Below the pieces are notes generated by a model. That model made no database searches. It was not told where the DNA came from and saw nothing but the letters and a program-made list of their open reading frames with translations. A program made the translations under genes and the position numbers. From assembly GCA_022647575.1 (NCBI GenBank), contig JALCKY010000002.1:372001-436000 (forward strand): a DNA stretch of 64,000 bases. The letters run 5' to 3'. The stretch is from Lachnospiraceae bacterium (GTDB lineage Bacteria > Bacillota > Clostridia > Lachnospirales > Lachnospiraceae). The first letter of the stretch is position 1; every line of letters starts with the position of its first letter. Of the stretch, positions 29,000 to 51,145 are shown one piece after another.

Positions 29000-29028
29000 G
29001 GAACCACCACCCCCGTCCCGGTGGTTCC
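29000..29028. repeat. 29-bp palindromic element, copy A
   Basis: GGAACCACC... ...GGTGGTTCC, 8-9 bp arms around a CCCCCGTCCC core. It forms an inverted pair with copy B, so together they can fold into a long hairpin between butyrate kinase and the acyl carrier protein. Confidence 0.85.
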
Positions 29029-29035
29029 TAGTTCC

Positions 29036-29064
29036 GGAACCACCGGGACGGGGGTGATGGTTCC
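29036..29064. repeat. 29-bp palindromic element, copy B (inverted)
   Basis: Opposite orientation to copy A (core GGGACGGGGGTG). It is followed by short TTCCATCG duplications. The A/B pair could act as a terminator or RNA-stability element. Confidence 0.85.
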
Positions 29065-32173: not shown

Positions 32174-33709
32174 TCAGATGCTGTCCATAAACCTCAGGAA
32201 TGCAGCCTTCCCCTCTTCCGTGCGCTTAAAGACGCCCGCACATTCCAGCACCTTTCCGAAGACCAGTCCGACTTCCTTCCGGACGATTTCATCCACCATG
32301 TCCCCGGTGAAACTTCCGTACTTCTCCTTCAGTTCCCGCATCCAGACCGCATGCTTCTGAATCGTCTCGTTCTTTTCCGGGTCGTCTCCGGAAACGAGAT
32401 ATTCGCCGACGGTCTTCAGTTCCGTCTGCAGGCGTCCCGGCAGGATGGCCAAGCCCATGACTTCGATGAGTCCGATGTTCTCTTTCTTGATGTGATGCAG
32501 TTCCGCCCACGGATGATACAGGCCGTCCGGATGCTCCGGCGTCGTCAGGTTGTTGCGCAGCACCAGGTCTATTTCGAAAAGACCGTCCCGTTTTCTGGTA
32601 ATCGGCGTAATCGTATTGTGCGGCTCTCCGTCCGTCTCGGAAAAAATCATCGCGTCCGCATCCGTGTATGCGCGCCATTTCCCTAAAATCTTATCCGACA
32701 GATCGATCAGGTCATCCTTGTTTTCGCACTGCAGGCGGATGACGCTCATCGGCCATTTCACGATGCCGCCCCGGACGTTCGGATAGCCTTCAAAGGAAAG
32801 GGGCATCTCGATCTGCGCCTTCGCCATCGGGAAATCAAAGCGGCCGCCCTGGAAATGGTCGTGACTCAAAATGGAGCCGCCGACAATCGGCAGGTCCGCA
32901 TTCGATCCGAGGATGTAATGCGGGAACTGGGAAATGAAATCGAACAACTTGCCGAACGCCGCGCGCTCGATCTTCATCGGCGTATGCTTCCCGTTGAAGA
33001 CGATGCAGTGCTCGTTGAAATAGCTGTACGGCGAATACTGCAGGAACCAGTCGCTGTGATTAATCGTGATCGGAATGATGCGGTGGTTCTCCCGCGCCGG
33101 AAAATTCGTACGGCCCGCATAGCCTTCGCATTCCTTGCAGAGCAGGCATTTCGGATAGCCGGTCTGCTTCGCCAGCTTGGCCGCGGCAATCGCCTTCGGA
33201 TCTTTTTCCGGCTTGGAAAGATTAATCGTGATGTCAAGGTCGCCGTATTCCGTCTTCGTGCTCCATTTGATATCCTTCACGATGCGGTAGCGGCGGATGT
33301 AGTCCGAATCCTGTGAAAACTGATAGTACCAGTCGGTCGCCTTCTCCGGCGATTCCGCATAGAGGCTGCGGAATTTCCGTATGACATCCGACGGGCGCGG
33401 CATCAGGCAGTCCATGAGACGCGTGTCGAAAAGATCGCGCTCCGTAACGGTGTCGTCGATCAGCCCGCGTGCGCAGGCATCATCCAGAAGATCCTTCAGG
33501 ATGACTTCCAGCGGACGGGCCGGAGCTGCCTCCGCCGCTGCGTTTCCGTCAGACGGAACCACCACCCCCGTCCCCGTGGTTCCTTCTTCGTATTCATCGA
33601 GCTTCATGACGTCGAGGATGCGGTTGCGCGCATAGATGACGTCTTCTTTTCCGATAAGTTCTTTTTCCGCCCCGTAGGCGGTAAGTTCATCGATAACTCT
33701 GCTGATCAT
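32174..33709 (-). CDS. galT: galactose-1-phosphate uridylyltransferase, type 2
   Basis: 511 residues, the Firmicutes long form of GalT (similar to TIGR01239). It exchanges UMP between UDP-glucose and galactose-1-phosphate in the Leloir pathway. Recognisable blocks include MPRPSDVIRKFRSLY, CLLCKECEGYAGRTNFPARENHRIIPI, LGSNADLPIVGGSILSHDHFQGG (with the catalytic-type His block) and LVLRNNLTTPEHPDGLYHPW. Near residues 43-52 an in-frame 29-bp palindrome adds GTTGTGVVVP, which looks foreign to the fold. It sits 39 bp after galK in one operon. No galE or galM is present. Confidence 0.92.
   Translation of the reverse strand: MISRVIDELTAYGAEKELIGKEDVIYARNRILDVMKLDEYEEGTTGTGVVVPSDGNAAAEAAPARPLEVILKDLLDDACARGLIDDTVTERDLFDTRLMDCLMPRPSDVIRKFRSLYAESPEKATDWYYQFSQDSDYIRRYRIVKDIKWSTKTEYGDLDITINLSKPEKDPKAIAAAKLAKQTGYPKCLLCKECEGYAGRTNFPARENHRIIPITINHSDWFLQYSPYSYFNEHCIVFNGKHTPMKIERAAFGKLFDFISQFPHYILGSNADLPIVGGSILSHDHFQGGRFDFPMAKAQIEMPLSFEGYPNVRGGIVKWPMSVIRLQCENKDDLIDLSDKILGKWRAYTDADAMIFSETDGEPHNTITPITRKRDGLFEIDLVLRNNLTTPEHPDGLYHPWAELHHIKKENIGLIEVMGLAILPGRLQTELKTVGEYLVSGDDPEKNETIQKHAVWMRELKEKYGSFTGDMVDEIVRKEVGLVFGKVLECAGVFKRTEEGKAAFLRFMDSI
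33555..33583. repeat. 29-bp palindromic element, copy C, inside galT
   Basis: An exact member of the family (GGAACCACC...GTGGTTCC) embedded in the galT coding region. Read on the minus strand it supplies ten in-frame codons giving GTTGTGVVVP without a stop. It lies in a linker between N-terminal helices. Confidence 0.9.
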
Positions 33710-33748: not shown

Positions 33749-35044
33749 TCAGCCGATTTCCTCGTTCACGCAGCACGAGCCGATCGGGCGGATGGCCATC
33801 CGGTAGGCGCAGCCTTCCCCGAGATGCTTTTCCATGTAGGAAATGTACTCGTCCGTGATTTCATTCGGGACGATTGCCAGGATGACCCCGGCAAAGCCGC
33901 CGCCGTGGACGCGGCAGGCGCCGCAGCCTTTCTTTTCCAGGAACAGTTCCGTCAGCGCCAGCGCGACCGTGATGCCCTGCTCCTGATAGTCATGGTTCGT
34001 GTAGCAGTTCTGCAGGTATTTCCAGGAAGAATTTCCGGAAGCGGTGATGCCCTTCAGGAATTCATTGAACCTTCCGCCTTCCAGGGCCTTCACGTCATTT
34101 TCCACGCGCTTGTTTTCCTCAAAGAAATGAATCGCACGCAAAATGGCGCGGTCTCCTGTCTTCTCCCGGATTTCCTGCAGGTGCGAGAGCATCTCCTCTT
34201 CGGACGTCTCGGAGAGATGCTGTTTCCCGAGGCATTCGGCGACCGCTTTCATTTCCTTCGGAATCGAGGAATAGTCTTCGGAAAGATCCGCATGCCCGCG
34301 TCCCGTCTGCACGATGATGACCGAATGGCCCGCGCTTTCAAAATCAAAATTCACCTTCCGCACATCCGGGTTCACCGGATCCGCGAAGTCGATCGTAATG
34401 AGTCCGCCGACGGCGCAGCACATCTGGTCCAGCAGGCCCGAAGCCTTGTCCCAGTAGACATTTTCGGAATATTTTCCAATCTGCGCATACATCGTCTTAT
34501 CGATTTTCCCATCGTTGAAAAACGTGTTGATGATCTGGCAGATGAGCGTTTCAAAGGCAGCGGAGGAGCTGACTCCCGCGCTGGAAATGACATTGCTCGT
34601 GATATAGGCATCGAAGCCGCCGATGGCATAGCCGTATTTCTTAAAGCCGGCCAGCATGCCTTTCACCAGGACTTCCGAGCCGGTCTTTGTCTCCCCGGGC
34701 TCCAGGTCATCGAGGCGGATCGTAAGCTGCTGATCGAAGCCTTCACTAAAAATGCGGACCGTGCCTGCATCATTTTTTCCGGCCGCCGACACGCAGTCCA
34801 GGTTGATGCTTCCGCCCAGCACTTTTCCATGATTGTGGTCGGTATGGTTTCCCGCGATTTCCGTCCTGCCCGGAGAAGAAAAAAGAAGGAAGTCCTCCTC
34901 TCCGTACATGGAAAGAAAACCGTCAATCACGCCTTCATAGCGTTTTCTCTGGGCCGCGGTTTCATCCGGACCGTAAAGCCTTGCAAAAAGACGATCTGCC
35001 GCAGCAGATGAAAGAAGTTTTTTCGTATCCCCGGCGTTCATCAT
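33749..35044 (-). CDS. galK: galactokinase
   Basis: 431 residues of GHMP kinase. The galactokinase signature near the N-terminus reads GRTEIAGNHTDHNHGKVLGGSI; the phosphate loop reads SSAGVSSSAAFE; the C-terminal motif is GAGRVHGGGFAG-like (GCGACRVHGGGFAGVILA). It phosphorylates galactose with ATP and feeds GalT downstream. The ribosome site GAGGGGG precedes two adjacent ATGs (35044 and 35041). The set galK-galT without galE suggests the epimerase gene is elsewhere. Confidence 0.94.
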   Translation of the reverse strand: MMNAGDTKKLLSSAAADRLFARLYGPDETAAQRKRYEGVIDGFLSMYGEEDFLLFSSPGRTEIAGNHTDHNHGKVLGGSINLDCVSAAGKNDAGTVRIFSEGFDQQLTIRLDDLEPGETKTGSEVLVKGMLAGFKKYGYAIGGFDAYITSNVISSAGVSSSAAFETLICQIINTFFNDGKIDKTMYAQIGKYSENVYWDKASGLLDQMCCAVGGLITIDFADPVNPDVRKVNFDFESAGHSVIIVQTGRGHADLSEDYSSIPKEMKAVAECLGKQHLSETSEEEMLSHLQEIREKTGDRAILRAIHFFEENKRVENDVKALEGGRFNEFLKGITASGNSSWKYLQNCYTNHDYQEQGITVALALTELFLEKKGCGACRVHGGGFAGVILAIVPNEITDEYISYMEKHLGEGCAYRMAIRPIGSCCVNEEIG

Positions 35045-39087: not shown

Positions 39088-39098
39088 TCCATCAAACA

Positions 39099-39127
39099 GA
39101 ACCACCACCCCCGTCCCCGTGGTTCTT
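39099..39127. repeat. 29-bp palindromic element, copy D
   Basis: First of two direct copies (GAACCACCACCCCC...GTGGTTCT) starting 11 bp after the TlpA stop. The flanking base pair is changed from G-C to A-T, keeping the stem. Confidence 0.85.
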
Positions 39128-39128
39128 C

Positions 39129-39157
39129 GGAACCACCACCCCCGTCCCCGTGGTTCT
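39129..39157. repeat. 29-bp palindromic element, copy E
   Basis: Second direct copy, one base after copy D. It ends at the ribosome site (TTGGAGG) of the next gene, so folding of this element could influence access to that site. Confidence 0.85.
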
Positions 39158-50274: not shown

Positions 50275-51145
50275 CCATCAGAACATGCTTCATGATTTCA
50301 ATGTCCGTCTGCATGGTCTCGATTTTATCTGCCTCCTGCAGAAACCGCTTCGCGGCAGGAACATAATTCTCAGCCAGAAGCTGAAGTGTCGGCTTAATAT
50401 CATTCTCCTGGGTAAATTCAATCCTCACGAGTCTTTGTTCCATGCTGTCCTGGCGCGTTATCAGACTCTTCTGATTGGCAGCCAGGCTCTTCTGATCTTC
50501 AGCCAGAGTCTTCTGATCTCCAGCCAGAGTCTCCAGACTTTCCGCCATGCTGTCCTGGCGCGCCATCAGACTCTTCTGATTGGCAGCCAGACTCTTCTGA
50601 TCTCCAGCCAAAGTCTCCAGACTTTCCGCCATGCTGTCCTGGCGCGCCATCAGACTCTTCTGATTGGCAGCCAGACTCTTCTGATCTCCAGCCAGGCTCT
50701 CCTGATTTCCAGCCAGGTTCTTCAGACTTTCCGCCATGCTGTCCTGGCGCGCTATCAGACTCTTCTGATTGGCAGCCAGACTCTTCTGATCTCCAGCCAG
50801 ACTCTCCTGATTTCCAGCCAGGTTCTTCAGACTTTCCGCCATGCTGTCCTGGCGCGCCATCAGACTCTTCTGATTGGCAGCCAGACTCTTCTGATCTCCA
50901 GCAAGACTCTTCTGATTGGCAGCCAGACTCTCCTGATTTCCAGCCAGGTTCTTCAGACTTTCCGCCATACTGTCCTGACGCGCAGACAGTTCCCCGAATT
51001 TTCTATCCATGCCGTCCAGCCGGCCATCAATCCCGTCCAGCCGGTTATAAATCGGATTCAGTTTCTCATCGAATTTCCGGTCCAGCTTTTCATCCAGTTT
51101 TTGATCCAGTAATTCTGCAATTGCAGACAGAGTTACTTTTTCCAT
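50252..51145 (-). CDS. heptad-repeat coiled-coil protein, C-terminus clipped by the IS4 element
   Basis: 297 residues from the ATG at 51145 (MEKVTLSAIAELL), six bases after GGAGGG. Residues 59-233 are 25 heptads such as SLAGDQK and SLAANQK, in five blocks, each starting SMAESL and ending ARQD or TRQD. A non-repeat domain follows (RIEFTQENDIKPTLQLLAEN). The last codons NVI and the stop come from the IS. Joining the two flanks at the target repeat restores DHSAKLEKITI and a stop at 48541. It has no signal peptide. It sits between the prepilin peptidase and TadZ-like genes. Confidence 0.85.
   Translation of the reverse strand: MEKVTLSAIAELLDQKLDEKLDRKFDEKLNPIYNRLDGIDGRLDGMDRKFGELSARQDSMAESLKNLAGNQESLAANQKSLAGDQKSLAANQKSLMARQDSMAESLKNLAGNQESLAGDQKSLAANQKSLIARQDSMAESLKNLAGNQESLAGDQKSLAANQKSLMARQDSMAESLETLAGDQKSLAANQKSLMARQDSMAESLETLAGDQKTLAEDQKSLAANQKSLITRQDSMEQRLVRIEFTQENDIKPTLQLLAENYVPAAKRFLQEADKIETMQTDIEIMKHVLMDHSANVI
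50447..50971 (-). repeat. array of 21-bp coding repeats in five blocks
   Basis: Twenty-five in-frame 21-bp units (seven codons) form blocks of 6, 5, 5, 4 and 5 heptads. Adjacent blocks are nearly identical at DNA level, so unit number can change by slippage or unequal recombination without loss of frame. Confidence 0.9.

Follow-up and report, generated by a model that had tools for sequence, protein, structure and literature searches.

In-frame copies of a REP-like palindrome in galT and other genes of a Lachnospiraceae bacterium, with a candidate Y1 transposase

The galT gene of a Lachnospiraceae bacterium contains, within its reading frame, a 29-bp palindrome that recurs between genes nearby. 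Has an intergenic repeat been inserted into the gene of a conserved enzyme, and if so, by what route? An earlier note on the window (the whole stretch of 64,000 nucleotides that was analysed) had proposed such an insertion, in the style of the Rickettsia palindromic elements. The features that bear on the question are listed in Table 1.

The galT palindrome and its family

The palindrome reads GGAACCACCACCCCCGTCCCCGTGGTTCC (33555-33583), and minus-strand translation confirms that it is read in frame in galT, giving GTTGTGVVVP at residues 43-52 and no stop. It had been called an exact copy of four intergenic repeats, which is true only of the copy at 39129, identical over 28 bp; the copies at 39098 and 29000 have one mismatch each, and that at 29037, on the minus strand, has two. 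The 28-mer occurs five times in the window at up to three mismatches (100 shuffles: mean 0.00, largest count 0). The insert in galT consists of two units, the second of them decayed, and spans about residues 43-63. The protein is matched in Pfam by both GalT domains, and matches to galT come mainly from records of Lachnospiraceae, Oscillospiraceae and other Clostridia, a few others being labelled Treponema.

Table 1. Features at galT, copies of the repeat in the window and in genes, and the Y1 transposase gene. Unprefixed positions are those of the window; G000 is the host genome.
Feature	Position	Strand	Remarks
galT, galactose-1-phosphate uridylyltransferase	32174..33709	-	511 aa, intact frame; repeat internal
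REP-like unit 1 inside galT	33555..33583	-	minus-strand reading GTTGTGVVVP, residues 43-52
Spacer between units 1 and 2 in galT	33548-33554		7 bp
Decayed second REP-like unit in galT	33522..33547	-	about residues 56-63, NAAAEAAP
54-bp block common to galT and hydratase gene	33529..33582	-	
Galactokinase gene	33749..35044	-	upstream neighbour of galT, same strand
Intergenic copy, arm 1 of inverted pair	29000..29027	+	1 mismatch to galT copy
Intergenic copy, arm 2 of inverted pair	29037..29064	-	2 mismatches to galT copy
Intergenic copy, first of direct pair	39098..39125	+	31-bp step; 1 mismatch to galT copy
Intergenic copy, second of direct pair	39129..39156	+	identical to galT copy over 28 bp
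DUF512 radical-SAM protein			internal, two units
Fused EcfA ATPase			internal, two units, between ATPase domains (matches end at 271 and begin at 302)
PRK11413-type hydratase	near G000:C2:326330-326366		internal, two units
cobU			internal copy
MBL-fold protein			internal, three units
Thr/Asp/Gly-rich repeat protein	L171:14285-15280 (G000:C3)		internal, one unit; no Pfam/NCBIfam match
purN			C-terminal tail, two units, at or past the end of the part aligned to solved structures
EamA transporter			N-terminus; doubtful
Xylulokinase-like (xylB-like) gene			N-terminus, called start within repeat; doubtful
Y1 (HUH, IS200-like) transposase	G000:C2:309177-309938		254 residues

Across the 3.03-Mb genome (11 contigs, 94.3% completeness) the family has 67 copies in 38 clusters. 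This total comprises 64 matches to a 19-mer core at no more than two mismatches, for which the pattern read backwards gave 0, and three copies from a looser search. The units stand in many unlike flanks, and in several cases a few bp at most separate an intergenic copy from the end of a neighbouring gene. Each strand of the repeat is predicted to form a hairpin with a stem of 8 bp, at -6.0 and -6.4 kcal/mol when folded as DNA. The consensus is free of stops in every frame, which helps but is not special, because the sequence is short and G+C-rich. Searches of 41 congeners, allowing two mismatches, and of 24 order relatives, allowing one, found no 19-mer core. No target-site duplication was established. 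A phage origin was rejected, the exact 19-mer being absent from viral_contigs, as was a plasmid origin, the galT start region having no match in plasmids.

Neither the peptide nor the DNA core was present in any of 109 GalT homologs, and among the alignment rows listed residues 43-52 align to a gap in a linker of variable length. The linker has 23 residues here; in the 107 of the 109 homologs with enough N-terminus the median is 8 and the range 6-58, with at least 23 residues in 12 of them. Since linker length varies anyway, the gap alone is weak evidence, and it is the DNA identity with dispersed non-coding copies that carries the case for an intergenic repeat inserted into a living gene, as the earlier note had supposed. 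The insertion event itself is not seen, because no near-identical strain with an empty site was found and the closest galT aligned is 66% identical. No PDB homolog of GalT was found at E 0.001. In an AlphaFold2 model of GalT (30 sequences), residues 44-63 have no predicted secondary structure, lie between helices 21-34 and 67-80 and make up the longest of five segments with pLDDT below 50.

Copies inside genes and a dimer common to two of them

A search for the motif in other genes of the same genome also found in-frame copies. Sixteen of the 67 copies, in 10 clusters, lie within 10 predicted genes without breaking the frame, the genes being called by a simple script that scored a fraction of 0.888 of the scanned regions as coding. 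Excluding the two doubtful N-terminal cases (the xylB-like and EamA genes), whose start calls may be wrong, leaves 14 copies in eight genes. The insert sites are length-variable loops, linkers or tails, and they would tolerate insertion because length varies in their families. The genic copies use three of the six reading frames, which argues for an origin as DNA.

Homologs of three more of these genes were compared. The core is absent from all 29 hydratase loci, with identities up to 78%, and the repeat-encoded stretch aligns to gaps or unlike residues. It is also absent from 29 DUF512 loci, where gaps or unrelated residues stand opposite the stretch (one of the 29 rows has no sequence in the region), and from 26 MBL loci, 12 of which were aligned. 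For cobU, PDB alignments pass through the repeat-encoded stretch without a gap, which leaves this case uncertain. In one hydratase homolog (locus L215, genome G031) the same loop contains GTTGSAG but no DNA core; a different sequence is duplicated in tandem there, so the loop can lengthen in more than one way.

The arrangement of neighbouring units depends on where they lie. All six genic pairs are direct and none is inverted, while 18 of 23 intergenic pairs are inverted (Fisher p 0.00097); among direct pairs, the step is a multiple of three in all six genic cases and in one of five intergenic ones (p 0.015). These tests have small numbers and treat pairs as independent, and two of the six genic pairs come from a single gene. 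The direct, frame-keeping pairs within genes, set against the mostly inverted pairs between them, can be read as a trace of selection.

The galT dimer has a close counterpart in the hydratase gene, about 79 kb away on the same strand of contig C2. A 54-bp block of the two genes has four mismatches, with the first 39 bp identical, and passes the CCGTCTGACGG junction into the second, decayed unit. The part of the block beyond unit 1 scores above all 2000 shuffles, and the genome has no exact match to a 17-mer across the junction beyond these two. The exact shared junction indicates that one gene received its dimer from the other, or that both dimers have a common source. The direct dimer would be a unit of copying.

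A Y1 transposase and related repeats in other genomes

Searching the genome with the PF01797 profile revealed one gene, encoding a Y1 transposase. Repeat copies flank this gene, one on one side and two of opposite orientation on the other. The encoded protein gives a match to NF047646 (REP_Tyr_transpos) at E 2.3e-20 and 72.9 bits, under the cut-off of 80. It has HVH and RYIAYNPVKAG stretches that resemble those of relatives, and a helix-turn-helix-like C-terminal region with a weak HTH_28 match below cut-off (E 0.0034). With a single Y1 gene and copies on both sides of it, the repeat looks REP-type with a cognate RAYT/TIRYT-like enzyme, which probably moves it. Among 22 related transposase loci, one had no match in the script and the remaining 21 include fragments; GGGGACRG lies on both sides of six of the 21 and on at least one side of nine, and shuffled flanks gave means of no more than 0.16 matches per locus.

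The reading that we favour, at a probability of about 0.8, is that a REP-like non-autonomous mobile repeat, with this Y1 transposase as likely cognate enzyme, has been copied into and between genes. Units and direct dimers would enter genes as well as intergenic sites. An insert would persist if it added a multiple of three bases overall, if its neighbouring units stood head-to-tail and not inverted, and if it fell in a flexible loop, linker or tail. The galT linker between the two predicted helices would have received a dimer, of which unit 1 stayed intact and unit 2 decayed. GalT and the other host proteins are presumably made and still work.

A related core, GGGGACRGTYC, is abundant (at least 30 matches and at least four times the control) in 13 of 36 congeners, with counts such as 537 against 8, 403 against 3 and 183 against 0 in the control, and also in genomes G039 and G048 of the order. 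Repeats with this core reach tens to hundreds of copies in G001, G011, G016, G029, G032, G039 and others. It is not enriched in the host genome (3 against 6), where the variant differs. Matches to the transposase were obtained in six of 36 congeners, in five of 24 order relatives and in the host. Four of the 13 repeat-rich congeners have one and nine have none, so repeat and enzyme do not seem simply paired, with the reservation that these genomes are drafts. In G048, of 2.0 Mb, there are eight matches to the RAYT-like protein, and in G011 many copies of GGGGACRGTYC stand in tandem plus inverted arrays with steps of about 20 bp.

Because of the nine repeat-rich congeners with no match to the enzyme, weight was moved from the transposase reading to another, in which copies spread by recombination or template switching between repeats (gene conversion), without a transposase. 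Such a process would also fit the dimer with one and the same junction in two genes about 79 kb apart on the same strand. It remains unlikely, as it would need insertion into unrelated sequence to put units into so many unlike flanks, and as copies flank the transposase gene.

Among the relatives, GGGGACRGTYC lay inside the matched gene at none of 113 loci of four genes, with 12 occurrences outside. In G011, the loci of the first 30 of 183 matches held 31 distinct copies, 29 of them intergenic and two of them lone 11-mers in genes. Within this sample, then, gene invasion is not a general feature of these families. The genus may offer a natural series in which to study the origin of such repeats and the reasons why some invade genes.

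Function, convergence and known systems

The hairpin on both strands, with its 8-bp stem, and the intergenic copies placed within a few bp of gene ends would suit an explanation in which the genic copies are kept for function, the hairpin acting on mRNA or the peptide changing the protein. We consider this improbable. The host genes serve unrelated functions, unit 2 in galT has decayed, the inserts lie in variable loops or tails and none of the six genic pairs is inverted. That selection or slippage produced a Gly/Thr/Val-rich linker at the naturally variable galT site (6-58 residues in 107 homologs), with the DNA match secondary, is hardly credible and largely refuted by the non-coding copies, given 28 bp identical to one of them where none is expected by chance, the same DNA read in three frames in different genes and a peptide found in 0 of 109 homologs.

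Copying of a mobile REP-like repeat into genes has published counterparts. The GTAG and CGTC REPs are short palindromes, mostly intergenic, some of whose copies are read in frame within unrelated genes (Di Nocera et al. 2013, PMC3733652), and the repeat described here behaves likewise. More than half of those intragenic inserts occur as dimers or in groups and encode 20-30 residues, and loops or linkers were proposed as tolerated insertion sites (PMC3733652). In-frame intragenic REPs have accordingly been published already, from other phyla (PMC3733652); neither the word Firmicutes nor Clostridi- occurs in the main text of that paper. The present repeat differs in that its genic pairs are all direct and in having neither a GTAG nor a terminal CGTC tag. 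Assignment as a CGTC REP was rejected, as CGTC lies in the predicted hairpin loop and not unpaired at one end with a CCA-like tail, and so was assignment as a canonical GTAG REP, there being no conserved GTRG just outside the 8-bp stem.

RAYT genes are flanked by inverted REPs (BIMEs, REPINs), and inverted pairs lie between genes (PMC2817692, PMC3116915). The system described here resembles a RAYT/REP system (REPtron) in its Y1 gene flanked by copies in inverted orientation and in its many dispersed copies. It is unlike one in lacking a GT[AG]G foot and in its NF047646 score under the cut-off, and unlike RAYTs, BIMEs and REPINs, as described in the available text, in that whether a pair is direct or inverted goes with its genic or intergenic position. 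RayT transposases are tabulated in two Geobacillus genome papers (PMC4847372, PMC9693769), so RAYT genes in Firmicutes are already in print. REPs inside transposase genes themselves have also been reported (PMC6006769).

A further comparison is with the TIRYT group (TnpA-Y1 subclass 2.1), in which a Y1 transposase carries a C-terminal HTH-like region and the flanking inverted repeats mostly have GGGG[AT][CG]A[CG], the GGGGWSAS core (PMC6006769). The element here has GGGGACGG, one base off that core, and its Y1 transposase has the weak HTH_28 match together with the HVH and NPVKAG stretches. Moderately abundant dispersed TIR families have been reported (PMC3733652), and REP-like sequences were not found near subclass 2.1 genes (PMC6006769). 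Genic insertion of TIR repeats is not described in the available parts of these two papers, whereas genic copies are present here. A more specific statement, that a TIRYT-type transposase drives a short repeat copied from gene to gene as direct, frame-keeping dimers, generating protein linkers in a Firmicute, is tentative and on balance doubtful.

The likeness to Rickettsia palindromic elements drawn by the earlier note extends to a palindromic repeat present in frame inside unrelated genes (PMC3733652, PMC10969869). It ends at the length, 29 bp here against about 150 bp in the first report as given in the review PMC10969869, and at the copies flanking a RAYT/TIRYT-like transposase gene; the elements are set apart by their description in the available text.

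A search of the open-access literature found no Firmicute case of in-frame REPs, which is not proof of absence. What appears new, as far as the literature seen extends, is a combination of four features: in-frame genic copies in a Firmicute, copies of that repeat on both sides of a gene for a TIRYT-like enzyme, genic pairs that are direct and keep the frame, and one dimer junction common to two genes. The idea that mobile DNA can lengthen conserved enzymes can be put to the test in this genome, which also encodes a candidate enzyme; orthologs up to 78% identical lack the insert.

The window holds a further repetitive stretch at 50440-50983, a long array of 21-bp-based tandem repeats with periods of 21, 84, 105, 126 and 189.
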